Shown: one piece after another, positions 1 to 10,535 of the stretch
Position numbering within the stretch: the stretch's first letter is position 1
How the letters are laid out: every line of letters starts with the position of its first letter
Assembly: GCA_024638225.1 (NCBI GenBank)
Contig: JAHEKR010000065.1
Coordinates: 1-33,805 of the forward strand
DNA: 33,805 nucleotides
Source: Flavobacteriaceae bacterium
GTDB lineage: Bacteria > Bacteroidota > Bacteroidia > Flavobacteriales > Flavobacteriaceae
Direction of reading: 5' to 3'
Notes under the pieces: model-generated
What the model was told of the DNA's origin: nothing
Database searches by the model: none
Seen by the model: only the letters and a program-made list of their open reading frames with translations
Program-made: the position numbers and the translations under genes

Positions 1-805
1 TAATCCCCATTTCAGCAAAAGCTGTCAAAGCACCAATAGCTACTAAATCCGTATTTATAAAAACACCATCTACATCTTTATTATCCTGGAGAAGCTTTTT
101 AGCATTAAACTTGCCCTCTTCAAAACTTGAATCGCCACATTCACATATATATACTAGACTTGAATCATAAATAAAATTATTTTCCTCCAGCGCTTCTTTA
201 TAGCCTAAAAAACGGTCAATTGAATTTTGTGACAACAGTGGACCTCTAAAATGAGCAATTCGTTTGCATCCAGTATCAATCAAGTGCTGCGTAGCATCTT
301 TTGCAGCCTTTCTGTCATCAATTACAACTTTTGAGCACTCCAATATTTTTACAATTTTATCAAACATCACTAATGGTTTTCCTTGTGTGATAACATCGCT
401 TAGATGTGTGAAATTTCTTGTTGTATTAGCGATAGAAATAAGGATCCCATCAACGCGTTGTCTCAACAATAAATCTATTTGCTTTTTTTCCAATTCATAA
501 GATTCATTTGATTGCAATATGATCACGAGATATCCTTTTTTTTCTGCTTGCGCCAAAATCCCTTTAATTACGTTTGAAAAAAAATGATGCACTATAGCAG
601 GAATGATTAATCCAATGGTTTTAGATTCTTTTGTTCTTAGGTTTACAGCAAATGCATTGGGTTGGTAATTTAATGTTTTCGCTAACTCCTTAACAAGCCC
701 TTTGGTTTTATCACTCACATCAGGATAGTCGTTGAGCGCTTTCGAAACAGTTGAAACAGAAATATTTAATTTTTCTGCGATTTGCATAAGTGTTACTTGG
801 CTCAT
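1..805 (-). CDS. LacI-family transcriptional regulator (3' end cut off by the window)
   Basis: Reading the minus strand from ATG at 805 gives an open frame to the window edge (268 residues, no stop). Residues 4-25 form a LacI helix-turn-helix (VTLMQIAEKLNISVSTVSKALN region), followed by the hinge and a periplasmic-binding-protein-like effector domain (TIGLIIPAIVHHFF, then VDGILIS and CKRIAHFRGP). Members of this family are normally repressors released by a sugar or sugar phosphate. The gene is divergent from the TonB receptor of the sugar cluster, and palindromes lie in the 147-base gap, so it is most likely the local repressor of both. By position it matches SuxR of the Xanthomonas sucrose locus. 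The effector is inferred, not seen; the C-terminal ~70 residues are outside the window. Confidence 0.95.
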   Translation of the reverse strand, partial: MSQVTLMQIAEKLNISVSTVSKALNDYPDVSDKTKGLVKELAKTLNYQPNAFAVNLRTKESKTIGLIIPAIVHHFFSNVIKGILAQAEKKGYLVIILQSNESYELEKKQIDLLLRQRVDGILISIANTTRNFTHLSDVITQGKPLVMFDKIVKILECSKVVIDDRKAAKDATQHLIDTGCKRIAHFRGPLLSQNSIDRFLGYKEALEENNFIYDSSLVYICECGDSSFEEGKFNAKKLLQDNKDVDGVFINTDLVAIGALTAFAEMGI

Positions 806-827
806 TTAAATTAAAATTGGATTTTTT

Positions 828-835
828 CAAACTTA
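828..835 (-). promoter_or_regulatory. Promoter -7 box of the lacI-type gene
   Basis: The minus strand reads TAAGTTTG, an exact match to the Bacteroidota -7 consensus TAnnTTTG, 22 bases before the ATG at 805. Its upstream edge touches the palindrome at 834-851, so repressor binding there would block it (autorepression, inferred). Confidence 0.6.
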
Positions 836-870
836 CGAAAACCTTTTCGTAGTTTTCGAAAACGATTTCG
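834..870. promoter_or_regulatory. Cluster of LacI-type palindromic operators
   Basis: Three overlapping or abutting dyads are visible. TACGAAAA-CC-TTTTCGTA (834-851) is a perfect 8-base inverted repeat with a 2-base spacer. GTTTTCGAAAAC (852-863) is a perfect 12-base palindrome. CGAAAACGATTTCG (857-870) is a 12-of-14 palindrome centred on CG, the usual centre of LacI/GalR operators. They occupy the gap between the divergent lacI-type and TonB-receptor genes, next to both candidate promoters. Binding by the adjacent regulator is inferred. Confidence 0.7.
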
Positions 871-880
871 TTTCATATTA

Positions 881-889
881 TAATTTTTG
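881..889 (+). promoter_or_regulatory. Candidate promoter of the TonB receptor and sugar cluster
   Basis: TAATTTTTG resembles TAnnTTTG with one extra T. It lies 63 bases before the receptor ATG and 10 bases after the last operator palindrome, so a bound repressor would cover the region just upstream of the -7 box. The match is imperfect. Confidence 0.4.
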
Positions 890-920
890 TGTTCCTAATA
901 TTATAAAATTCGTAATTAAA

Positions 921-941
921 ATCATTAATCATTAATCATTA
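921..941 (+). repeat. Three tandem ATCATTA repeats in the receptor leader
   Basis: ATCATTA occurs three times without interruption, ending 11 bases before the ATG at 953. It is AT-rich and lies in the expected 5' leader. No Shine-Dalgarno sequence is present, as is usual in this phylum. The tract could vary by slippage, but that is speculation. Confidence 0.8.
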
Positions 942-952
942 AATTAATAATC

Positions 953-3577
953 ATGAAACTATTAAGTAAAATAAGTTTTGCGTATTTATTTGTTTTTTCA
1001 GTAACCGTTGCACATTCGCAATCTTCGGTATCTGGAAAAGTAGCAGATGAAAATGGAGTGCCAATTTCAGGTGCAACTGTTATTGTTGACGGAACGTCAA
1101 CGGGAACAGTAACTGATATGGATGGTGCGTATTCGATTTCAGTTATGTCGGAATCTAATGTTACGCTTACCGCTTCTTATCTAGGATTTAAAACACAATC
1201 CCAAAGTGTTACGCTAAGCGGTATGAGTGCAACTGTTAACTTTTCGTTAGCTGAAGATTTTTCAACTCTAGATGAGATTATCATCACAGGTGTTGTGAAT
1301 CCAAAATCTAAACTAGAATCAAGTGTATCTATTTCTTCATTAGGCGTTAATGCTATTGAGCAAGCTGCTCCAAGAAGTGCTGGGGAATTGTTTAGAAATA
1401 TTCCTGGTATTCGCGCAGAGTCATCTGGGGGTGAAGGAAATGCAAACTTTAATGTAAGAGGTGTTCCTGTTTCTTCAGGTGGATCACGTTACTTTCAAAT
1501 TCAAGAAGATGGTTTGCCACTTAACTTGTTTGGAGATACTTCTTTTGGAAATGCTGATAACTTTCTTAGAATTGATAGTAATATTGGTCGTGTTGAAGCT
1601 ATTCGTGGTGGGTCTGCTTCAACCCAAACATCAAATGGTCCTGCTGGTATCATCAACATGATAAGCAAGACAGGTGACGTTGAAGGGGGGTCTATTATGG
1701 CTACTTATGGCCTAGATTACCAAACAAACAGAATGGATTTTGAATATGGAACGCCACTAGGAAATGGCTTGTCTTATCACATTGGTGGGTTTATGCGCAC
1801 TGGTGAAGGACCACGAAATATTGGTTACCAAGGGAATAAAGGAGGTCAAATAAAAGCCAACATTACTAAGAAGTTTGAGTCAGGGTATGTAAGAACGTAT
1901 TTTAAATACCTAAATGATAAATCGGTAATGTACCTTCCAATGCCAATGTTATTGACAGGTTCAAATGACAATCCTTCATTCGAAAACCTTCCTGGGTTTG
2001 ACATCAACAATGACTCTCCACATTCTGTTAATATGCAACAAAGTGCAGGCACAGATCCTTTTACAGGAGATCGTAAAGTCAATGATGTAAGAAACGGTAA
2101 CAATCCTAAATCACAAGCTATAGGCACTGAGTTTTCTTTCGACTTAGGAAATGATTGGAGTGTTTCTGGAAAAGCACGATACAGTGCTAATTCAGGTGAA
2201 TGGGTGTCGCCATTTACTATGGCAGTTGGAACAGTTTCTGAGATTGAAACTACTGCAAGAGATGCTGTAAATGCAACTGGAAACTTAGTATATGCCGATG
2301 GAGCTAGAGAGGCTTTTAACCCTTCAAATGGCTTAGCTCAAATTATTCACATGTTTGATGTAACTGTAGATGATTTAAGCAATTTCTTTAGCGATGTTAA
2401 ATTGAATAAAAAGGTTAATGACAACCTTGGTCTTACTTTAGGTATGTTTACTGCAACGCAAAACACCAAAATAGGTTGGCAATGGAGCTCTTATATTTCT
2501 GAAATAAAAGGAAATGGAGAGGCTAGACTAGCTGATTTTGATGGATGGTCTAGAAATGGACAATATTCATATGGAACCCCTACTTGGGGCAATTGCTGCC
2601 AACGCAAATACAACACGGTACATAATGTAAATTCTCCTTATGTAGCTGTAGATGCAAATCTTTCTGAAAAATTAAACTTTGATGGTAGTGTTCGCTTTGA
2701 AAACGTTCGTGTAAACGGAAATATTCAAGCTGGACCAACAAGCCAAGGAAGCTATGATTATGACGGTGATGGTATTATCCAAGGAATTGAGCTAGTAGTT
2801 CCTGTAATTGCAGGAAATGCAGGTCAAAATATCAATGACGATTACAATTTTGTATCATACTCATTTGGCTTAAACTACAAAACAAGCGATGACGCTGCAC
2901 TATTTTTACGCACTAGTTTAGGTGCATCTGGAAGAGCTCCGGATAGAAATAATTATGGGTCTAACGGAAGAGGCGATACTCAATTTGATGAAGTAAGCCA
3001 AACGGAACTTGGTTATAAAAGACGTTTTGATAACGGTGTTTTAAATCTTACAGGTTTTATGAGTAACACCAAGGAAGGGTTAAGTAATGAACTTAACAGA
3101 ACCGTTGGAAACCCATTTAAAGCGATGGGTCTAGAAGCAGAAACATCTTTAATGTTAAGCGATAAGTTCGTATTTGTAGGATCTGCAACATGGACAAAAG
3201 CAGAGATTGACGGAGGTGATAACAAAGGAAATACACCTAGAAGACAAGCCGATTTTGTTTACAACTTTACCCCTACTTATATGTACGGAAGTGATAATCA
3301 AAACACACTTGGACTTAGTATTCTTGGTACATCAAAATCCTATGCACAAGATGACAACGCACTTGTCATGCCAGCCTATGCTTATGTAAATCTATTTTCA
3401 GAAATCAAATTGACAAATGCTTTGTCGCTTTGGTTAAACGTAAATAATTTATTTGACGTAGTTGGTATTACAGAAGTTGAAGGAAATGGAGATGGCGCTT
3501 TTAATGGAGATCGCTTGGCTAGAGCACGTTCCATTAGTGGGCGTTCCTCAACCGTTTCACTCCAATTCAACTTTTAA
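953..3577 (+). CDS. TonB-dependent outer-membrane receptor, probably for sucrose
   Basis: The 874-residue protein has a signal peptide (residues 1 to about 22, ending AHSQ), a carboxypeptidase-regulatory-like domain (about 25-97, SGKVADENGVPISGATV), a plug domain (about 110-240, with GELFRNIPGIR and NFNVRGVP) and a C-terminal beta-barrel ending in the aromatic residue F (STVSLQFNF). Such receptors import substrates through the outer membrane using TonB energy. No SusD-like partner follows, so this is a stand-alone receptor as in the Xanthomonas SuxA system rather than a SusC/SusD pair. Substrate is inferred from the downstream SUT-type transporter, kinase and phosphorylase. A Cys-Cys pair (residues 548-549) in the barrel appears to be its only cysteines. 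A hairpin terminator follows at 3616-3648. Confidence 0.93.
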   Translation: MKLLSKISFAYLFVFSVTVAHSQSSVSGKVADENGVPISGATVIVDGTSTGTVTDMDGAYSISVMSESNVTLTASYLGFKTQSQSVTLSGMSATVNFSLAEDFSTLDEIIITGVVNPKSKLESSVSISSLGVNAIEQAAPRSAGELFRNIPGIRAESSGGEGNANFNVRGVPVSSGGSRYFQIQEDGLPLNLFGDTSFGNADNFLRIDSNIGRVEAIRGGSASTQTSNGPAGIINMISKTGDVEGGSIMATYGLDYQTNRMDFEYGTPLGNGLSYHIGGFMRTGEGPRNIGYQGNKGGQIKANITKKFESGYVRTYFKYLNDKSVMYLPMPMLLTGSNDNPSFENLPGFDINNDSPHSVNMQQSAGTDPFTGDRKVNDVRNGNNPKSQAIGTEFSFDLGNDWSVSGKARYSANSGEWVSPFTMAVGTVSEIETTARDAVNATGNLVYADGAREAFNPSNGLAQIIHMFDVTVDDLSNFFSDVKLNKKVNDNLGLTLGMFTATQNTKIGWQWSSYISEIKGNGEARLADFDGWSRNGQYSYGTPTWGNCCQRKYNTVHNVNSPYVAVDANLSEKLNFDGSVRFENVRVNGNIQAGPTSQGSYDYDGDGIIQGIELVVPVIAGNAGQNINDDYNFVSYSFGLNYKTSDDAALFLRTSLGASGRAPDRNNYGSNGRGDTQFDEVSQTELGYKRRFDNGVLNLTGFMSNTKEGLSNELNRTVGNPFKAMGLEAETSLMLSDKFVFVGSATWTKAEIDGGDNKGNTPRRQADFVYNFTPTYMYGSDNQNTLGLSILGTSKSYAQDDNALVMPAYAYVNLFSEIKLTNALSLWLNVNNLFDVVGITEVEGNGDGAFNGDRLARARSISGRSSTVSLQFNF

Positions 3578-3615
3578 TTAATAGTTTTTCATTAGTAGTT
3601 TAGTTTTATTAGATT

Positions 3616-3654
3616 AGGGTTGGTGTTTGTATCACTTTCACCAACCCTTTCTTT
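3616..3654 (+). terminator. Intrinsic-terminator-like hairpin inside the sugar cluster
   Basis: AGGGTTGGTG (3616-3625) and CACCAACCCT (3639-3648) are perfect 10-base inverted repeats around a 13-base loop, followed by a T-rich run (TTTCTTT). The hairpin sits between the receptor and the glutaredoxin-like gene. It would allow high receptor expression with reduced read-through into the transporter and enzymes. It could alternatively protect the 3' end of the receptor mRNA. Confidence 0.75.
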
Positions 3655-3661
3655 AAGGACC

Positions 3662-3997
3662 ATGGTAAAAATAGTTAATACATCCCTAATCATTTTAACT
3701 TGTTTTTTTTGTTTTGCATACACTTCAAGCACCAAAAAACAACAAGAAATAATTGTTTATGGCAGTGATGAGTGCCACTATTGCATAGACACTAAAACCT
3801 TCTTAAATCAAAATAACATCTCATTTACCTACTACGACATTGATATAAGCAAGGATAAAGAACAAGAAATGTTATCAAAATTGAATGGGGCTAAAATTCC
3901 AATTGATAGCTTTCAACTACCTGTTGTTGATAAAAACGGTTCTATTTTTACAAACGGGCAAAACTTCATTGCATTTTTAAAGAAAATAATCGAATAA
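3662..3997 (+). CDS. Secreted glutaredoxin-like thiol-disulfide protein
   Basis: The 111-residue product has a hydrophobic N-terminal segment (residues 8-20), suggesting export or membrane anchoring, then a small thioredoxin-fold domain with the redox motif C38-H-Y-C41 (GSDECHYC), the pattern of glutaredoxins, and a Leu-Pro-Val stretch in the place of the cis-proline loop. I chose ATG 3662 rather than an in-frame start at 3620, because 3620 lies inside the terminator hairpin and AAGGA precedes 3662. The stop codon abuts the ATG of the MFS gene, so the two are probably translationally coupled. Glutaredoxins are normally cytoplasmic, so an exported one within a sugar operon is unusual. A role in handling cysteines of the receptor is a guess. 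Confidence 0.8.
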   Translation: MVKIVNTSLIILTCFFCFAYTSSTKKQQEIIVYGSDECHYCIDTKTFLNQNNISFTYYDIDISKDKEQEMLSKLNGAKIPIDSFQLPVVDKNGSIFTNGQNFIAFLKKIIE

Positions 3998-5299
3998 ATG
4001 CTTAAAAAAATAAAACTTAGTTTTTGGCAAATTGTAAATATGAATGTTGGTTTTTTCGGCATTCAATACAGTTTTGGCTTACAACAAAGTGCCGTAAACC
4101 CCATTTACGATTTTTTAGGCGCAGCTCCCGATCAAATTCCCATTTTAAATTTAGCAGGACCAGTTACAGGTTTGTTGGTACAACCTATTGTTGGCGCATT
4201 AAGTGACAAAACTTGGCACCCAAAATTTGGCAGACGTAAGCCTTATTTCTTTATTGGAGCATTAATATGTAGTATTAGTCTTTTTGCCTTTCCATTCAGC
4301 AGTTCACTTTGGATGGCAGCAGGACTTTTATGGATTCTAGATGCCGGAAACAATATGGCTATGGAACCCTACCGTGCATTTGTTGTTGACACGCTTAAAA
4401 CAGAGCAACAACCTATGGGCTTTCAAATGCAGAGCTTTTTTACGGGCCTTGGACAAACCCTTGCAAACGTATCCTTATTTATATTCCCCATGATCATTAT
4501 TGGTAAAACAGGACATTTGCCAACTTGGGTTTTTGCATCATTCTTTCTGGGAGCAGTTTGTTCCATTGGCACTATCCTGTGGAGTATTAAAACGACAAAA
4601 GAAATACCACCAACTGATGAAGAGCTTGAAAAAATTAGAACTGCCAAAAAAGGTCTTGCCGTGCCTCTTGTTGAAATACTATCTGCTATCAAAAGTATGC
4701 CCAAGGTTATGTGGCAATTAGCTTTGGTATATTTATTTCAATGGTATGCCCTGTTTTGCTATTGGCAAAACTCATCCAAAAGTATTGCTCTTTCTGTTTG
4801 GGATGCAACTCCAAAATCGAATCCAGAGGCCTATGAAAAGGCAGTTAGCTGGACAGGCTTGGTAAACGGATGGTATAATATTGTTACGTTTCTCGTTGCT
4901 TTCCTTTTAGTGGGATATGCCAAAAGATTTGGAGCCAAAAAGGTTCACTTTGTTTGTTTGCTTTTAGCGGGTATAGGTTTTGCCGCATTTCCCCACATTG
5001 CAGATAAAAACCTATTATTTGTTGCCATCACTGGCTTTGGTGTTGGATGGGCTAGTATGATGGGAATTCCATATTTACTAGTCGTTTCGTCTATTCCTAA
5101 AGAAAGATACGGCGTGTACATGGGTATTATCAATATGATGATTGTGATTCCCATGTTGCTTCAAAACCTTTCTTTTGGATATATTCTAAAAAACTTTTTA
5201 AATAACGACCCAAGAAATGCCATCAGTTTTGCAGCAGTTTTACTCTTCTGTGGAGCACTGGCAACCTTACTAATAAAACCTGTTCAAAAAACAGCATAA
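3998..5299 (+). CDS. MFS/GPH-family sugar symporter, probably for sucrose
   Basis: The 433-residue polytopic membrane protein has about 12 hydrophobic segments. Residues 54-84 contain [17 protein letters not shown] followed by KFGRRKPYF. This is very close to the loop signature of plant sucrose/proton symporters of the GPH branch (GP-x-x-G-x-LVQPIVG...SD...FGRR-P). The N-terminal [16 protein letters not shown] is also typical of this branch. It would carry the disaccharide from periplasm to cytoplasm. The ATG directly follows the stop codon of the glutaredoxin-like gene, and the kinase gene begins 10 bases after its own stop. It corresponds in position and role to SuxC of Xanthomonas. A related alpha-glucoside such as maltose cannot be excluded. 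Confidence 0.88.
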
Positions 5300-5309
5300 T
5301 CTTAAATTA

Positions 5310-6224
5310 ATGGACATACTTTGTGTAGGAGAAATACTAGTGGACTTTATTGGGGCGCAATACGGAAAAACTATCGCTACCACTGAAAGTTATAATCGCT
5401 TTTTAGGCGGCTCAACTGCTAATTTAGCTGTTAATGCCAATACAATTGGCTTAGCAGTCGATTTGGTTGCAAGTGTTGGAGATGATGGTCTTGGTCAATA
5501 TATACTTGATGAATTGAATGTTTTTGGCTTGTCAACAGCGCATATAACTAAAATTCCAAACCAGCCTACAAGTTTAATTTTTGTTTCTAGATCAAATGAA
5601 ACGCCCGATTTTGTTCCCGTTCGGGGTGCAGATGCACATATTTTGGATACACAAATAAGTGACGATATTATCAACAAGGTCAAAGTGTTTCACACCTCTT
5701 GCTTCGCTTTAAGTCAAGAACCCGCGAGATCAGTCATTATGCGAAAAGCAAAACAAGCCTTTTCATCAGGATGTAAATTGAGTATAGATATAAATTATGC
5801 TACTGAAATTTGGCCTGACAAAGAACAGGCTGTTGCATTTATAAAAGCGTATTGTACCTTTAATCCTCTTGTCAAGATAAGCGCAGACGATGCCAAAAGA
5901 CTCTTTGGAGACGTTGCTTCTTACAATGATATCTTTACACTTTTCCATAGTTATGGAGCAGATGTTGTTTGTCTTACATTAGGAAGCGAAGGGGTCATGT
6001 TGGCACAAAAAGGAAAAGAAACCGTTCATAAGCCAGCAATTAAAATTGATGAGGTTATTGATGTTACGGGTGCAGGAGATGCTTTTTGGTCAGGATTTTT
6101 ATATGGATATATCAAAAATCACGATTTCGAACAATGCGTATCAAATGGTCTTAAACTTGCCCATATTAAATTGCAACGCGTCGGTCATATTCCAGAATCC
6201 ACTAGCCGAAGTCTAACGCTATAA
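5310..6224 (+). CDS. PfkB-family sugar kinase, probably fructokinase
   Basis: The 304-residue cytoplasmic protein has the ribokinase/PfkB layout: N-terminal GEILVDFIG (7-15), the first signature around RFLGGSTANLAVN (30-42), and the C-terminal signature DVTGAGDAFWSGF (251-263), in which D257 is the catalytic base and GAG forms the anion hole. It would phosphorylate fructose with ATP, and fructose is what sucrose phosphorolysis releases. It lies 10 bases after the transporter gene and 21 bases before the phosphorylase gene. The PfkB family also includes ribokinases and KDG kinases, so the substrate assignment rests on context. Length is normal for the family. Confidence 0.85.
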   Translation: MDILCVGEILVDFIGAQYGKTIATTESYNRFLGGSTANLAVNANTIGLAVDLVASVGDDGLGQYILDELNVFGLSTAHITKIPNQPTSLIFVSRSNETPDFVPVRGADAHILDTQISDDIINKVKVFHTSCFALSQEPARSVIMRKAKQAFSSGCKLSIDINYATEIWPDKEQAVAFIKAYCTFNPLVKISADDAKRLFGDVASYNDIFTLFHSYGADVVCLTLGSEGVMLAQKGKETVHKPAIKIDEVIDVTGAGDAFWSGFLYGYIKNHDFEQCVSNGLKLAHIKLQRVGHIPESTSRSLTL

Positions 6225-6245
6225 TTATTTAGTAACAAAGTATAA

Positions 6246-7964
6246 ATGCAAAAAGGTGTCATACTTAATGCTTACCCTGATAGTATTGGTGAGAACTTAT
6301 CAGGATTAATTTATTTTATTGAGCGCAACAACCTTGAACAGGCCTTTACTCACTTATACATACTTCCAACACTATTTAATAGTGATTTAGATCGAGGGTT
6401 TTCTATTATTGACTATGATTTAAACGAATCGTTAGTCTCCAACGAGGACTTAAATAAATTAACAGATTTAAACATAAAATTAAAACTGGACATTGTATTA
6501 AATCATTTGTCTGTAGCCTCACCACAATTTCAGGATTTATTACAAAGGGGCGACACTTCTGTTTATAAAGATTTTTTTATTGACTGGAACTCGTTTTGGA
6601 AAAACAATGGAACACTTGAAGCAGATGGAATTATACAACCAAAAAAGGAGTATTTAGAAAAACTTTTTATGCGGAAGGATGGGTTGCCCATCCTTGAAGT
6701 TTATTTTCAAGACGGTTCTAAACGACCTTATTGGAATACATTTTATCAAAAAATAACGTTCAATAAAATCTTACCATCAGACTTAGACGGTATTTTAGAC
6801 TCCGAAGCCGAGAAACGGCACATCTCTAAAACAGTAAATGATACAATAGAAAGCGATAAGAATATTCATGAAATCGAATCTTTGAATAATTTAGGGTCAA
6901 GAAATGAAATTCTAAAAATCATCTATCAAAAATCAACGTATTTAGGCCAAATGGATTTAAATGCTCAATCAGAACTGGTTTGGGACTTTTATCAAGATTG
7001 TTTGAAAAAAATCACTTTCTATGGTTGTACTATTTTAAGATTGGATGCTTTTGCTTATTTGCATAAAAGTGTAGGAGAAACAAACTTTTTCAATAAACCA
7101 GGTACTTGGGAGTATTTAGATCGCTTTAGAGAAATGGCTACTGATTTTGATTTAAGATTACTTCCTGAAATTCACGCTGAATACGGCTCTAAAACCCATG
7201 AGGAAGTATCCAACAAAGGATACATGATATATGATTTCTTCCTGCCAGGGTTGATTATCTATAGCATTGAATATGGAAACAATAATCCGTTAGTAAAATG
7301 GATTAGAGAACTTATTGAAAAAAAATACGAGACCATTAATATGCTCGGCTGTCATGATGGTATTCCCGTATTAGACTTAAAAGGAAAAGAAATAGATGGT
7401 GTTTATCAGGAGGGTTTACTTTCAGATAACCAAATTGAAGAAGTTGTTGAACTTATTTTAAATAGAGGTGGAAAAATTAAAAATATCTTTGACGCCAAAG
7501 GAAAAAAAATATCCTACTATCAAGTAAACGCTACATACTATAGTGCTCTTGGAGAAAGCGAAAAAAAGATGTTGTTAGCAAGAGCTATTCAATTATTTGT
7601 ACCTGGAACACCTCAAGTTTGGTATCTCGATTTATTTACAGGGAAAAACGATTACAATGCAGTTGAACTTGCTGGAGCAGGTGGTCACAAAGAGATAAAC
7701 AGAACCAACTTAAGTCTTGACGATATTACTAGTGGAGTTGAAGCACAAATTTTTAAAAAACAGATGAAACTCATTAGTTTACGTAATAGACTTAATGTTT
7801 TTAATGGAAAATTGACACTTAAAAACCCTGACAATAACAAGCTAATCTTTACGTGGAAATTAAGTGATGATTTCGCAAAATTAGAACTAGATCTTTTAAG
7901 CTTAATCTTTTGTGTTTCTTATTCTGAAAATGGCAAACTTTATAGAGAAGTATTTAATGCCTGA
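6246..7964 (+). CDS. GH13_18 sugar phosphorylase, probably sucrose phosphorylase, with a large insertion
   Basis: The 572-residue protein shows the sucrose phosphorylase pattern throughout: FSIIDYDLN and LDIVLNHLS near the N terminus, YKDFFIDWNSFWK (107-119), nucleophile D267 in LRLDAFAY, acid/base E308 in LLPEIHAEY, D371 in CHDGIP, then YYQVNATYYSALG and VPGTPQVWYLDLFTGKND. Several of these match Leuconostoc sucrose phosphorylase as I remember it. The reaction is sucrose plus phosphate to glucose 1-phosphate plus fructose, in the cytoplasm. Known family members are about 490-560 residues. Here about 68 residues (167-234) separate WNTF from QMDLN, where the Leuconostoc enzyme has about three. 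GH13_18 also contains glucosylglycerol, glucosylglycerate and sucrose-6-phosphate phosphorylases. The SUT-type transporter and kinase favour sucrose. It is the last gene of the cluster. Confidence 0.85.
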   Translation: MQKGVILNAYPDSIGENLSGLIYFIERNNLEQAFTHLYILPTLFNSDLDRGFSIIDYDLNESLVSNEDLNKLTDLNIKLKLDIVLNHLSVASPQFQDLLQRGDTSVYKDFFIDWNSFWKNNGTLEADGIIQPKKEYLEKLFMRKDGLPILEVYFQDGSKRPYWNTFYQKITFNKILPSDLDGILDSEAEKRHISKTVNDTIESDKNIHEIESLNNLGSRNEILKIIYQKSTYLGQMDLNAQSELVWDFYQDCLKKITFYGCTILRLDAFAYLHKSVGETNFFNKPGTWEYLDRFREMATDFDLRLLPEIHAEYGSKTHEEVSNKGYMIYDFFLPGLIIYSIEYGNNNPLVKWIRELIEKKYETINMLGCHDGIPVLDLKGKEIDGVYQEGLLSDNQIEEVVELILNRGGKIKNIFDAKGKKISYYQVNATYYSALGESEKKMLLARAIQLFVPGTPQVWYLDLFTGKNDYNAVELAGAGGHKEINRTNLSLDDITSGVEAQIFKKQMKLISLRNRLNVFNGKLTLKNPDNNKLIFTWKLSDDFAKLELDLLSLIFCVSYSENGKLYREVFNA

Positions 7965-8057
7965 AAATTAGAGCAAAACGCACTTAAAATCTTTAAACCA
8001 TTGGATTATTGCTATAAAGTTTATTAAAAAAAATAAAAAATTATTCTTGGGAATAAA

Positions 8058-8101
8058 GTGGAGGCTAGGGGAGTGAAATCGAACTTTTTTAGAGTTGATT
8101 T
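8058..8101 (+). repeat. Left copy of a 44-base imperfect repeat (partner at 10798-10841)
   Basis: Aligned without gaps to 10798-10841, 33 of 44 positions agree, with GTGAAATC as the best-conserved core. It lies in the 249-base gap between the phosphorylase and sulfatase 3' ends. The reverse strand (GTTCGATTTCACTCCCC, then CCTCCAC) loosely resembles the 3' end of a tRNA or tmRNA gene, which would fit an old attachment site. The rest of the gap shows no gene; a weak dyad TTGTTTCCGAAACAA lies at 8161-8175. Confidence 0.5.
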
Positions 8102-8213
8102 GTTTAAAATTGTAAGCAACTTGTCTTAGGCGTTTTGGCTCTACCGTCCGTCTTTTTGGGTTGTTTCCGAAACAATTTTAAATCAATTAAAGTGAAAGAA
8201 ATATATAGTTTCC

Positions 8214-9554
8214 TTATTCTCGAATTCGTAAAGCTTCTTTAAATAAACTATTCCGAACCTCGTTTATTGTTGGCGATGGATTGGTAAGCAAATTGCTTCT
8301 TTCATATGGGTCATTTTTTAAATCATAAACCGACTCTGTCCCATCGGCATCAACGATTAGTTTATACTGCGCATCTCTAACGGTATAACATATATTCCCA
8401 TCTGTTGATTTTTCAGTATAAGCATATGCTCTTGTGTTAACATCTGTTTCCCTAAGCAAAGCGTGGAAACTTTTACTGTTGTATTTTTCTAAAATAACAG
8501 AACCTGCCATTTGCGCAATTGTAGTAAATAAGTCTGTTGATTGAATTAAAGCATCCTCACGCTCCCCTTTTCTTGTTACACCTACTCCAGAGATAACCAT
8601 AGGGACATTTATACCACCTTGAAAAATACTTCCCTTAGCTCTTCTAGTTCGATATGGAGATTGAACAACTTGACTTGGCGTTCCGTTGTCTCCCAAGAAT
8701 ATCACAATAGTGTTCTCAAGACCATTTGGAATTGATTCAATAACTCGACCCAACTCAGTGTCAAGGGCTTCGATTGCAGAAAAATAATACGGCAAGGGGT
8801 TTGCCTCTATCATAGTCTCATCTTCAGACAAATTCCCTTGATTATGTAAGTTCGTTGGGGCAAGATGAAAAGGGGTGTGTGGCGCATTGTATGCGAGCCA
8901 TAAAAACCATGGCTTGGATCTTTGACTAATCCATTGAACTGCCTGATTAGAAAATTCAGTTGTTGTATAAGTGGCCACTCTTTCTCTTTCTCCATTTGTG
9001 ATCCGATTCCAGTTTGTGTATGACGACACACCTCCTCCAATAATGCCAGAGAAATAATCTACTCCCATGGAATTTGGATCAGTAATTGTATTTGATAAAT
9101 GCCATTTGCCGATTAATGCTGTATCATAGTCACCGTTTGTTTTATCTTTCAAAAAGTCGTGTAAAGACTCCTCATTTAATGAAATATCTTGCTCTACTTC
9201 CATTACACCCGAGTGGTACCCCAACTTACCGGTTAATATGGAAGCTCTGGTCGGAGAACAAACAGAATAAGTCCACAAATTATCGAAAGTAATTCCACCA
9301 GCCATTAAGTTATTTAGGGTTGGCAATTGTGGCTTTTCTTGCCCTTCAGGGTAATTTGGAAAAGCATCCTTTCCCATGTCATCTGCAATGACCAATAAAA
9401 TGTTTGGTAAGGTATTTTCAAATTTTTCTGATGCCTCAGAGGAGTTTGCTGGTTGGTTTTCGCAGGAAATAAAAATGATAAGCAGCATAAATATTCTATA
9501 CTGAACTACAAACCTTTTTTTGTAATTTTTGCTACGGTGCTTGATTGGCGTCAT
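8214..9554 (-). CDS. S1-family sulfatase, predicted lipoprotein
   Basis: The 446-residue product has a long basic N-terminus, a hydrophobic stretch and a lipobox-like FISC with C31 as the likely lipidation site. The catalytic domain begins with NILLVIADDMG, whose D58-D59 bind the metal, and carries C99-S-P-T-R (SVCSPTRASILTG), the C-x-P-x-R signature in which Cys is converted to formylglycine. GKWH and GDNGTPS supply further active-site residues. It would remove sulfate esters in the periplasm or at the cell surface; the substrate is unknown, and no glycoside hydrolase or maturase is in the window. I kept the first ATG, three bases after the upstream gene, because AAGGTGGAG precedes it and the basic stretch makes a good signal n-region. 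It is co-transcribed with the YHYH gene. Confidence 0.92.
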   Translation of the reverse strand: MTPIKHRSKNYKKRFVVQYRIFMLLIIFISCENQPANSSEASEKFENTLPNILLVIADDMGKDAFPNYPEGQEKPQLPTLNNLMAGGITFDNLWTYSVCSPTRASILTGKLGYHSGVMEVEQDISLNEESLHDFLKDKTNGDYDTALIGKWHLSNTITDPNSMGVDYFSGIIGGGVSSYTNWNRITNGERERVATYTTTEFSNQAVQWISQRSKPWFLWLAYNAPHTPFHLAPTNLHNQGNLSEDETMIEANPLPYYFSAIEALDTELGRVIESIPNGLENTIVIFLGDNGTPSQVVQSPYRTRRAKGSIFQGGINVPMVISGVGVTRKGEREDALIQSTDLFTTIAQMAGSVILEKYNSKSFHALLRETDVNTRAYAYTEKSTDGNICYTVRDAQYKLIVDADGTESVYDLKNDPYERSNLLTNPSPTINEVRNSLFKEALRIRE

Positions 9555-9557
9555 TTT

Positions 9558-10535
9558 TTAAACTCCACCTTTTAAACAACGTGTAAAGAAAGGAAAATCA
9601 TCGGTAACAACATAGTAGTAAATCCCATTAGGAAATTCATGAGTAACACCAAACCTTCCGTTACATTCGTCTAAATCTCCAAGTCCTTCTACATATTCAT
9701 AGTCTTGCGTAAATGCACCCATTGGAATGGGTTTATTGATATTACTATTTGCGTTTGGCCCACCAAGAATTGCCGTGAGTGTTTTTGGTCGATTTTCATC
9801 AGCTTGAGATTTCAATCGATAGCTAGTTGTTAATGCTTTTAATTGACTTTTTGAATCTTCAGGATTAGCGTAGCCATACCTTGCATAAACGGGAAAGCCA
9901 TCAGATGCCCATCCAATTAGGGTCATGCCGTCGTTATCTCCTAAAAAATCAATAAGTAATTCAGGCATTCCGTGATAATGATAAGCACCATTGGGTTGGA
10001 CATGTGCGTGATTCATATCATCTCCAAAATCAAAGGTATCATGTCCTAAAGCTTCAATATTCCAGTTTCCTTCTCCACGAGCCAAACTACATTCGCCAGC
10101 ATCATTGCACCTACCTGCAGTAGCTGGATCAAATTTTACACTATTTAACGCATACGCAATAGCCATGGCAGGACCAACCACTTCAAGACCACTTTCATAA
10201 ATTATTGAAGGACAAAGTGTAAAACTTTTGCTAACATTTTGCGCACTAATGCTGTTTGGATTATTTGAATTCGGGAAAGTACCTACTTCATGATTTGGAA
10301 TGCCATTTCCGTTCAATATTCTGCTTGTTCCATCTGATGACCACGAATACTTGCTAAGCGCCAAAACAGACTCGTCATCATTATAAATTTCTTCATCAAT
10401 ATTTACCAAAATATTAGCTGTAGAAGTTCCTATTGTACAATTTGTAGCTTCTTCATCAATTTGCGATGAAGACTCATTGTTGTCACATGATATGAATAAC
10501 AATCCAATTAGGATAATTCCAATTTTAAGATTCAT
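9558..10535 (-). CDS. YHYH-domain lipoprotein of unknown function
   Basis: The 325-residue product starts with a clear lipoprotein signal (hydrophobic stretch to LLFISC, C17 lipidated). The mature part has the hallmark motif GAYHYHG (Y185-H-Y-H188) of the YHYH family, a histidine-rich DDMNHAHVQPNGAYHYHG stretch, and GWASDGFPVYARYGY further on. The histidine-rich motif suggests metal binding, but I know of no established reaction for this family. At least six cysteines in the mature part may form disulfides, fitting an exported location. It is the first gene of a two-gene unit with the sulfatase (three bases apart), so a joint role on a sulfated substrate is possible. No clear TAnnTTTG promoter was found in front of it. 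Confidence 0.85.
   Translation of the reverse strand: MNLKIGIILIGLLFISCDNNESSSQIDEEATNCTIGTSTANILVNIDEEIYNDDESVLALSKYSWSSDGTSRILNGNGIPNHEVGTFPNSNNPNSISAQNVSKSFTLCPSIIYESGLEVVGPAMAIAYALNSVKFDPATAGRCNDAGECSLARGEGNWNIEALGHDTFDFGDDMNHAHVQPNGAYHYHGMPELLIDFLGDNDGMTLIGWASDGFPVYARYGYANPEDSKSQLKALTTSYRLKSQADENRPKTLTAILGGPNANSNINKPIPMGAFTQDYEYVEGLGDLDECNGRFGVTHEFPNGIYYYVVTDDFPFFTRCLKGGV

Follow-up and report, generated by a model that had tools for sequence, protein, structure and literature searches.

The window, by which we mean the whole stretch of 33,805 nucleotides from a marine-type bacterium that was analysed, carries at its left end a divergent regulator, two operator-like sites and a run of five genes on the other strand, as follows.

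2 to 805, minus strand: divergent LacI-family regulator (PF00356 and PF00532), C-terminus lost at the contig end, 268 aa seen
836 to 849, no strand assigned: putative operator, first copy, CGAAAACCTTTTCG, differing at one position from the conserved palindrome CGAAAACGTTTTCG
857 to 870, no strand assigned: putative operator, second copy, CGAAAACGATTTCG, 21 bp downstream of the first
953 to 3577, plus strand: stand-alone TonB-dependent receptor with a CarboxypepD_reg domain, without a SusD partner (PF13715, PF07715, PF00593)
3662 to 3997, plus strand: glutaredoxin-like protein with a CHYC motif (PF00462, 3.7e-09)
3998 to 5299, plus strand: SUT/GPH-type MFS symporter (TIGR01301, 93.8 bits; best solved match SUC1, 8bb6, 4.5e-18)
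5310 to 6224, plus strand: PfkB kinase, proposed sucrose 6F-kinase, Ala164 in place of the fructokinase Arg (PF00294, residue comparison, co-occurrence)
6246 to 7964, plus strand: GH13_18 phosphorylase, predicted strict sucrose 6F-phosphate phosphorylase (SPP; 627 bits to IcSPP, 6s9u)

The genes for the receptor, the glutaredoxin-like protein, the SUT-type MFS, PfkB and GH13_18 form a same-strand unit (953 to 7964, plus strand), the gap between the glutaredoxin-like and SUT genes being 0 bp and those further along 10 and 21 bp. An earlier note on this DNA had placed a five-gene unit in the same interval; four of its genes do lie there on the plus strand, but LacI is outside it (2 to 805, minus strand) and the glutaredoxin-like gene at 3662 to 3997 was missed. 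The search for the gene order in relatives which that note had suggested recovered the same order in many related genomes. A tandem palindrome precedes the receptor gene, and two putative operator copies 20-21 bp apart (at most two mismatches) were present in 27 of 28 LacI-receptor gaps, against none of the 28 for the reversed pattern used as control. As both the gene order and the tandem palindrome recur, they signify more than chance, and the sucrose operon including its LacI gene is real and conserved. The evidence for the putative operator is its conserved place and spacing, not genome-wide scarcity: at no more than one mismatch the two copies are the only site in the assembly, but the reversed pattern is commoner in the same genome (eight forward matches against two for the pattern itself), so scarcity proves little. 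Shuffling the window 100 times gave at least two operator matches in two shuffles. In the close relative L031 the LacI gene is complete (341 aa, 99% identity across the aligned part).

With a LacI-type regulator, a TonB receptor, an inner-membrane permease and a sugar enzyme in one unit, the locus has the composition of the sux/Scr-type systems. The Pfam scan of the 29 window proteins detected no SusD family at E <= 0.001, which agrees with what had been said of the window before, and a SusC/SusD polysaccharide utilisation locus was dropped as a reading because no SusD stands beside the receptor. The receptor scored 100.9 bits against the SusC/RagA model TIGR04056, far under its cut-off of 368.25, and its role is presumed to be outer-membrane sucrose uptake. 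The symporter also stays below its model cut-off (93.8 against 511 bits for TIGR01301), which makes it a relative of the SUT/GPH sucrose-proton symporters and not a member by model; proton-sucrose symport is its presumed activity. The glutaredoxin-like reading frame opens at TTG 3620 with its first ATG at 3662, and by eye its product begins with a signal-like stretch. Among loci that hold the receptor, its gene was found in 14 of 18 with SPP and 7 of 10 with a GH100-like invertase, and it was absent from all receptor-less loci examined.

The nearest solved relative of the GH13_18 enzyme is IcSPP (6s9u), at 627 bits against 260 for the runner-up. The catalytic Asp, Glu and Asp are present (D267, E308, D371), loop A reads K421-I-S-Y-Y-Q426, a KXXYYQ motif and not the N(L/V)D(I/L/V)YQ of sucrose phosphorylase (EC 2.4.1.7), and the F6P-binding Arg152, Lys364 and Lys434 of IcSPP correspond to R143, K412 and K482; R143, K412, K421, Y424, Y425, Q426 and K482 are thus all conserved with respect to IcSPP. 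The catalytic, loop-A and F6P-binding residues were kept in the window enzyme and in 45 of 45 Flavobacteriales SPP rows, with at least three of the rows coming from a genome already represented (L129 and L038, L139 and L044, and L141 and L062 have identical kinases). Loop A reads NLDLYQ in all 8 rows of the family's true sucrose phosphorylases, which differ from IcSPP at R152, K373, Y376 and K434 in every row and at K364 in seven; these rows take in G227 (L112) and leave out G150 (L117), whose phosphorylase is in pieces. Sixty other SPP-like rows were less uniform, K373 being R, Q or H in three and missing in two, K434 being R in two and missing in two, and Y376 being V in one. Among the Flavobacteriales rows, L140 and L058 share an identical layout.

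The window enzyme scored 316 bits against the NCBIfam sucrose phosphorylase model TIGR03852 (cut-off 334.4), and its predicted structure (pLDDT 88.5) contains a helical insertion of about 58 residues (approximately 171-228) where IcSPP has about 5. IcSPP is reported to be active on sucrose 6F-phosphate only, and its paper assigns Flavobacteriia to the clade of this enzyme (PMC6720575). Both characterised enzymes of the KXXYYQ clade, IcSPP and RgSPP, are described as strict for sucrose 6F-phosphate and inactive on sucrose. A plain sucrose phosphorylase was dropped for the window since loop A and the phosphate-binding residues are of SPP type, and judged by these residues the enzyme is probably a strict SPP.

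Membership of the kinase in the PfkB superfamily is indicated by PF00294 (154 bits) together with the catalytic D257, G34 of the GG pair and the Asn at N38. Its nearest solved relative, 3hj6, is called a fructokinase; a fold search with the predicted structure (pLDDT 83.7) was uninformative on specificity, all 50 matches listed having Z > 30 (2qcv 34.6, 5eyn 31.8, 3hj6 31.5). The kinase falls under the cut-off of the NCBIfam fructokinase model PRK09434 (108 against 450 bits), which is weak evidence because a second type of PfkB in the family, that of L124, fails likewise (91.9 bits); its best NCBIfam score is to the IolC-type TIGR04382 (173 bits, cut-off 300). In sucrose it is the O2' of fructose to which glucose is attached. 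In VcFRK this O2' is bound by R176, which also touches the gamma-phosphate mimic (PMC6240065), so that loss of the Arg need not concern O2'. The R176 position is Ala164 in the window and Ser, Ala, Thr or Asp in all 66 window-like kinases, the GH100-linked ones included; all 23 second-type kinases, some of which lie beside GH32, have Arg there. At the A46 position the second-type kinases have Ala (23/23) and the window-like ones Ser (66/66), as does the H. orenii fructokinase; the alignment was unclear at the lid Phe residues 113 and 115, and the VcFRK fragment compared did not extend to D26 and D30.

The distribution of the kinase was followed in 299 genomes of one family, taken as Flavobacteriaceae because named records hold identical kinases. 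SPP was encoded in 29 genomes, all of which encode the window-like PfkB (adjacent in 27), and a GH100-like invertase was found in the other 26 genomes with this PfkB, so that one or the other enzyme accompanies this kinase in 55 genomes; none of the 55 carries both. The kinase was absent from all 8 genomes with sucrose phosphorylase only, a class that includes G150 and is made up of the nine sucrose phosphorylase genomes minus G227, the carrier of both. Weaker GH13 matches in eight genomes (52-75 bits) were counted as neither; L118-L120, the three of them that were inspected, have a different loop. For the GH100-like enzyme the cut was placed at 217 bits once the gap between 217 and 112 bits had been seen, and the exclusivity of SPP and GH100 leaves out 24 matches under this cut, most of them in reading frames of about 690 aa and ten in SPP genomes. 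In 9 of 25 loci the GH100-like gene has only 35-38% identity to L154 and is separated from the kinase by some genes. In the kinase tree, built after three duplicates were dropped, SPP-linked and GH100-linked labels cluster (6 changes for the SPP label against 22.1 in shuffles), but the two clades that had been expected were not seen: no bootstrap tree (0%) separates the SPP group by a single branch, half of the inner branches (31 of 62) are open, and the starred branches taken by themselves require just one change for SPP and four for GH100.

The second-type PfkB is carried by 23 of the 29 SPP genomes and by 13 of the 23 GH100-like genomes tested, a tally that omits G012, G118 and G194 from the 26; the PfkB search found none in G000, G165 and four more SPP genomes. 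GH32 was absent at all 28 window-like kinase loci L148-L175 and was present, within the stretch fetched, in 7 of 20 second-type kinase loci. Only one SPP locus of the family has GH32, namely L044, which lies in the genome of L139; there the GH32 gene overlaps a separate second-type kinase and the window-like PfkB abuts SPP. Several related loci hold SPP with trehalase and other MFS genes.

Since the phosphorylase seems made for sucrose that carries a phosphate, the neighbouring kinase may be suggested to phosphorylate sucrose and not fructose. We therefore propose, as the probable reading of these sequences, a PTS-independent scavenging route in which the kinase acts first. The SPP-type residues and the closeness to IcSPP, the kinase or SPS neighbours of SPP in other loci, the PfkB in 29 of 29 SPP genomes against 0 of 8 with sucrose phosphorylase only, the lack of PTS_EIIC in 40 of 40 SPP-positive Bacteroidota genomes, the replaced O2' Arg and the lack of GH32 at window-like kinase loci speak for it. 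Sucrose would pass the outer membrane through the TonB receptor and the inner membrane through the SUT-type symporter, as family and context suggest; PfkB would use ATP to phosphorylate the fructosyl 6-OH, giving sucrose 6F-phosphate, which SPP would split with phosphate into glucose 1-phosphate and fructose 6-phosphate, a step predicted from the conserved residues and the two characterised clade members. Each sucrose would cost one ATP net, no more and no less than with sucrose phosphorylase and fructokinase, but no free fructose would arise and the sugar would be trapped as soon as it is imported. What had been proposed of a SusD-free, LacI-linked operon of sucrose-scavenging type, whose bond energy should be conserved as glucose 1-phosphate, is retained. 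In sister operons the GH100-like enzyme takes the place of the phosphorylase. We put at even chances the stronger form, in which PfkB without the anomeric Arg is a dedicated ATP-dependent sucrose 6F-kinase and the short GH100-like protein a sucrose 6F-phosphate hydrolase, giving two interchangeable endings.

Against the kinase acting first stand the 26 genomes that pair a window-like kinase with the GH100-like invertase. Known GH100 enzymes take free sucrose as substrate. If the GH100-like enzyme does so too, the kinase would be a fructokinase there, unless it accepts both sugars or the phosphorylated sugar is what the GH100-like enzyme cleaves, and this partner keeps the fructokinase reading in play. 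Also counting against the kinase-first route are the kinase tree, which does not divide the SPP-linked and GH100-linked kinases into two clades, the fructokinase name of 3hj6, the contact of R176 with the gamma-phosphate mimic, the six SPP genomes in which no second-type kinase was found, the 16 of 78 named SPP loci without a phosphorylating neighbour, and the four SPP-positive Bacteroidota genomes, plus that of the fragment L107, with neither PfkB nor SK. A dual-use PfkB, acting on the fructofuranosyl 6-OH of sucrose beside SPP to give sucrose 6F-phosphate and on that of fructose beside the GH100-like invertase to give fructose 6-phosphate, overlaps the kinase-first route and is a tentative, rather unlikely alternative; it would account for one kinase family serving two splitting enzymes that were not found together and for the six SPP genomes, G000 among them, without a kinase of the second type, but the Arg is absent from the GH100-linked kinases too, and most of the SPP genomes (23/29) and 13 of 23 tested GH100-like ones already have a second-type PfkB.

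Less probable still is the order given in the earlier note, in which GH13_18 splits free sucrose into glucose 1-phosphate and fructose and an ordinary fructokinase acts last. The resemblance to 3hj6 and the GH100-like pairing in 26 genomes speak for it, as does Shewanella, where, in the accessible part of the report, this order was reconstructed and the permease with the phosphorylase gave E. coli growth on sucrose (PMC2996990). However, the strictness of the two characterised KXXYYQ members, the phosphate-binding residues kept in 45 of 45 rows, the lack of this PfkB beside true sucrose phosphorylases (0/8) and the loss of the O2'-binding Arg in 66 of 66 window-like kinases argue against it, and neither the sucrose phosphorylase role, given the strict SPP marks, nor the fructokinase role assigned there was upheld by the sequence; that note had, however, named sucrose 6-phosphate as one of the substrates for assay. 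It is very improbable that SPP is fed by intracellular sucrose 6F-phosphate from a sucrose-phosphate synthase (SPS) while the transporters serve another alpha-glucoside: SPP does occur with SPS and/or phosphatase in Gammaproteobacteria and some other phyla, 11 of the 40 Bacteroidota genomes with SPP encode SPS-like proteins, and trehalase and other MFS genes accompany SPP in several related loci, but no SPS-like protein was found in the genome itself or in its congener G165 (both incomplete), the phosphorylase shares its operon with the receptor and the symporter, and a sucrose transporter is the symporter's best solved match.

Among 78 named SPP-type loci, an SK-type kinase was adjacent in 27 and fused in 12, and sucrose-phosphate synthase and/or phosphatase was present in 13 (52 of the 78 with one of these beside or fused to SPP); this PfkB was found in 10, and 16, including the acidimicrobial L059, sole record of the class of IcSPP, had no phosphorylating neighbour within 3 kb. 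The SK label (AgaSK-type, putative sucrose kinase) derives from synteny in papers and a weak P-loop match (PF00485, 22.7 bits). A link between SPP and kinase genes was noted earlier in fewer genomes, as far as the accessible text of PMC6521584 goes. Among the 40 SPP-positive Bacteroidota genomes PTS_EIIC was not detected (control: match in 7 of 14), and PTS was dropped as the source of phosphorylated substrate there; SK was likewise dropped but for one genome of the 40, that of L074. SPS is a possible supplier in the 11 genomes with SPS-like proteins, some of which may be other glycosyltransferases as identity is only 29-33%. Four SPP-positive Bacteroidota genomes and that of the SPP fragment L107 lack both PfkB and SK.

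In this PTS_EIIC-free setting, the PfkB found in every SPP genome sampled within the family is the obvious candidate source of the SPP substrate, and one residue sharpens the prediction, an Arg for the free anomeric oxygen of fructose being replaced by a small residue. If true, it would correct the annotation of this kinase, whose closest solved relative bears the name fructokinase, in 55 of 299 genomes of one family; a dedicated sucrose 6F-kinase would supply strict SPPs without PTS and make the operon a phosphorylated-sucrose module. The view of the layout as uncommon was too strong, given these 55 genomes and the Shewanella set already described in the accessible portion of PMC2996990. A search of openly licensed PubMed Central papers returned no publication on a PfkB sucrose kinase or such a flavobacterial operon, which is not proof of absence.

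With IcSPP (Ilumatobacter coccineus) and RgSPP (Ruminococcus gnavus; EC 2.4.1.329) the window enzyme shares the KXXYYQ loop, the catalytic triad and the F6P-binding residues of IcSPP; the window enzyme differs in its helical insertion, about 58 residues long against about 5 in IcSPP, and in having PfkB, SUT symporter and TonB receptor as neighbours. Strict SPPs have already been assayed and crystallised. The substrate source of the known SPPs is left open or ascribed to PTS in the available parts of PMC7178133 and PMC6521584. The kinase has the fold, catalytic Asp, GG and Asn sugar-site residues in common with the Vibrio cholerae and H. orenii FRK, but in window-like kinases the Arg for fructose O2' of these PfkB fructokinases is replaced by Ala or Ser. 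R. gnavus Rgaga1 (AgaSK and SPP) likewise places an ATP-dependent sucrose kinase beside SPP, but it has an ABC transporter and its kinase is reported to phosphorylate glucose C6, according to the accessible sections of PMC6521584 and PMC7688924; judging from SK neighbours in the surveyed loci, AgaSK would not be of PfkB type. The sux locus of Xanthomonas campestris also combines a LacI-type repressor, a TonB receptor and an inner-membrane transporter for sucrose scavenging, but with an amylosucrase-type hydrolase and, in the portion of PMC1790865 available, neither kinase nor phosphorylase. Shewanella Scr (ScrR-II, Omp-Scr, ScrT-II, ScrP, ScrK), compared by its description in the accessible text, also has LacI, TonB receptor, permease, phosphorylase and kinase; its gene order differs, its enzymes are named sucrose phosphorylase and fructokinase, and its transporter and phosphorylase were validated together (PMC2996990).

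The five plus-strand genes of the sucrose operon, from the receptor to the GH13_18 enzyme, are tightly packed, and the window that carries them is contig C19 of an assembly of 1.48 Mb in 65 contigs (completeness 80.5%). The features are:

2-805, divergent: LacI-family regulator, truncated by the contig end
953-3577, +: TonB-dependent receptor
3662-3997, +: glutaredoxin-like small protein (ORF starts with TTG at 3620)
3998-5299, +: SUT/GPH-type MFS symporter
5310-6224, +: PfkB kinase
6246-7964, +: GH13_18 enzyme

The operon described in the earlier note stands, except that its coordinates left LacI outside and the glutaredoxin-like gene was overlooked; its absence of SusD also holds, with no SusD family match among the 29 window proteins scanned. 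The same six genes, with LacI complete, are found in a close relative (L031; GH13 protein 93% identical). A sulfatase and a YHYH-domain protein (8214-10535, minus strand) are the next genes after the operon and lie outside the unit, and the LacI-PfkB-phosphorylase genes of a Cellulophaga locus (L043) are likewise flanked by a sulfatase, 46% identical to that of the window. The G+C content of the operon (34-37%, noted for region 1-9000) against the remaining window (39-45%) may hint at horizontal acquisition.

Among solved structures, the GH13_18 enzyme was closest to the sucrose 6F-phosphate phosphorylase (SPP) of Ilumatobacter coccineus (IcSPP, 6s9u; 627 bits, next 260). Of the compounds tested, IcSPP is described as active on sucrose 6F-phosphate alone, its clade includes Clostridia, Flavobacteriia and Acidimicrobiia, and its phosphate contacts are Arg152, Lys364 and Lys434 (PMC6720575); according to a review, strict SPPs are recognised by KXXYYQ and sucrose phosphorylases by N(L/V)D(I/L/V)YQ (PMC7178133). 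The window enzyme carries R143, K412 and K482 at the contacts and K421, Y424, Y425 and Q426 at the KXXYYQ motif. The ten sites checked were invariant in all 45 Flavobacteriales rows (at least three of which repeat a genome) and nearly invariant in 60 rows from outside Flavobacteriales. In same-family sucrose phosphorylases R152, K373, Y376 and K434 are replaced by Pro, Asn, Leu and Arg (8/8) and K364 by Arg or Leu (7/8), and the NCBIfam sucrose phosphorylase model scores the window enzyme at 316, under its cut-off of 334.4. Judged by sequence, the enzyme is an SPP, in agreement with those strict-SPP tests that can be run, and the plain sucrose phosphorylase proposed earlier fails on the loop motif, the contact residues and the NCBIfam cut-off. 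The window enzyme has, near residues 171-228, a helical insertion that IcSPP lacks and that is modelled with good confidence (pLDDT 82-93).

In sucrose, the atom carrying glucose is O2' of fructose. In the Vibrio cholerae fructokinase (VcFRK) this O2' binds R176, and the fructose-binding residues are called 'stubbornly conserved' across the family (PMC6240065). The window kinase has Ala164 at this position, and the 66 window-like kinases have Ser (33), Ala (31), Thr (1) or Asp (1), whether their partner is SPP or the GH100-like protein that replaces it in sister operons. Arg is kept in 23 of 23 PfkB kinases of a second type, in the H. orenii fructokinase and, by eye, at the motif in solved relatives with printed alignments (3hj6, 3ewm/3gbu, 2v78, 2qcv, 2qhp, 1wye and VcFRK). 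By this residue test the window PfkB is not the canonical fructokinase assumed before, although R176 also touches the gamma-phosphate mimic (PMC6240065), so its substitution could have another reason. A GH32 gene lies near the second-type kinase in 7 of 20 fetched loci, and in L110 a sucrose phosphorylase lies two genes away from that kinase; the window-like kinase loci L148-L175 have no GH32 (0/28). Among the SPP loci of the family, GH32 occurs solely in L044 and its copy L139, a single locus with two PfkBs, in the order GH32 overlapping the second-type kinase by 4 bp, LysE-type gene, window-like PfkB and SPP.

Across 299 sampled genomes, named Flavobacteriaceae through identity with named records, SPP was encoded in 29, all with the window-type PfkB, which adjoins SPP in 27 (Fisher P = 2e-25, the relatedness of the genomes overstating independence). 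The remaining 26 PfkB genomes all encode the GH100-like protein at 217 bits or more, and no PfkB genome has both partners at that score; four GH100-like genomes are without this kinase. Ten SPP genomes have a weaker GH100-domain protein elsewhere (91-112 bits, ~690 aa). When 28 loci were fetched around PfkBs without adjoining SPP, 25 had the GH100-like gene within the stretch, the exceptions being L157 (GH100-like on another contig) and genomes G206 and G167 (SPP elsewhere). The kinase was absent from all eight genomes having true sucrose phosphorylase but no SPP.

The GH100-like protein (~390 aa) is weakly similar to alkaline invertases and stands in place of SPP in the 26 same-kinase genomes (L148-L175; in L154, for example, at 8520-9695 on the minus strand), where it is frequently accompanied by the receptor and operator of the SPP operons. 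The glutaredoxin-like protein, whose N-terminus looks like a signal sequence, is kept between receptor and symporter in 14 of 18 SPP and 7 of 10 GH100-like receptor-bearing loci, and was absent from the examined loci that lack the receptor. Modules with sucrose phosphorylase (L111, L112), SPP (L121, L142) and GH100-like protein (L152, L154) share one place on the chromosome, with queG (often ruvB) ahead of them and a malic-enzyme gene and ruvA behind; this position therefore looks like one where sucrose modules are exchanged.

The operator was surveyed in the window and 27 other loci, which gave 28 gaps between LacI and receptor genes after two repeats were dropped. In 27 gaps the palindrome CGAAAACGTTTTCG (at most two mismatches) occurs twice, at a spacing of 20 or 21 bp, and 20 gaps have at least one exact copy; the reversed control pattern was found in none of the 28. 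The window copies (836-849 and 857-870, one mismatch each) are its sole matches at up to two mismatches (0.18 expected), and two matches were reached in 2 of 100 shuffles. With one mismatch allowed, the whole assembly has no copies beyond these two; the reversed control gives eight forward matches there, so operator rarity alone means little. The operator is common to SPP-type and GH100-type operons and points to one local regulon.

Sucrose would be imported by the receptor and then the symporter, phosphorylated by PfkB with ATP to sucrose 6F-phosphate, and cleaved by SPP with Pi to glucose 1-phosphate and fructose 6-phosphate, at the same cost per sucrose as with phosphorolysis first and a fructokinase last. 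Gene order, conservation, residue identity, co-occurrence and the operator were computed; every substrate in the route is inferred. The GH100-like partner is a serious difficulty for a sucrose kinase. Known GH100 enzymes act on free sucrose; if the GH100-like protein does too, PfkB would see fructose in those operons, and would be either a dual-use kinase or the fructose kinase of the earlier note. The second-type kinase is additionally present in 23 of 29 SPP genomes. Among the PfkB types compared, the other six genomes, the window's own included, have only the window-like kinase, which also leaves room for dual use on sucrose and fructose. The kinase tree, with many weak branches, does not split SPP-linked and GH100-linked kinases into two clades, which fits, short of proof, one activity with both partners and hence a shared phosphorylated intermediate.

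For the sucrose kinase reading, the source of sucrose 6F-phosphate elsewhere is relevant, which has been left open or attributed to a PTS (PMC6521584, PMC7178133). Of 40 Bacteroidota genomes with SPP, none has PTS_EIIC (control positive in 7/14), one has an AgaSK-type sucrose kinase (SK), and 11, the window's own genome not among them, have proteins like sucrose-phosphate synthase (SPS). Among 11 named SPP genomes without PfkB beside SPP, five have PfkB elsewhere, one has SK and five have neither. Within 3 kb of SPP in 78 named loci, an SK-type P-loop kinase adjoins in 27, SPS and/or sucrose-phosphate phosphatase is nearby in 13, window-type PfkB in 10, and none of these in 16. In the other 12 loci SK is fused N-terminally to the phosphorylase (L068, L069, L071, L072, L081-L083, L085, L089, L091, L094 and L095), 11 of them actinobacterial records. 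As SPP sits with SPS and/or sucrose-phosphate phosphatase in Gammaproteobacteria and in a small number of further phyla (L042, L045-L047, L050-L052, L054-L057, L060 and L098), it may there reclaim the cell's own sucrose 6F-phosphate. In L176, L177 and L184, loci of SPP-positive genomes, an SPS-like glycosyltransferase adjoins a GH100-domain protein (complete copies have ~690 aa), and L184 has a second-type PfkB next to it as well; this is perhaps a separate sucrose-turnover module.

A search of openly licensed PubMed Central literature found no PfkB sucrose kinase; SPP and a kinase gene in one cluster were earlier remarked by Tauzin et al. (PMC6521584). The fusion of SK to SPP suggests that SK itself makes sucrose 6F-phosphate, beside which the glucose-C6 phosphorylation reported for the R. 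gnavus kinase AgaSK sits oddly (PMC7688924). As a sugar locus with a TonB receptor, the operon resembles Xanthomonas sux (PMC1790865) and Shewanella Scr (PMC2996990).
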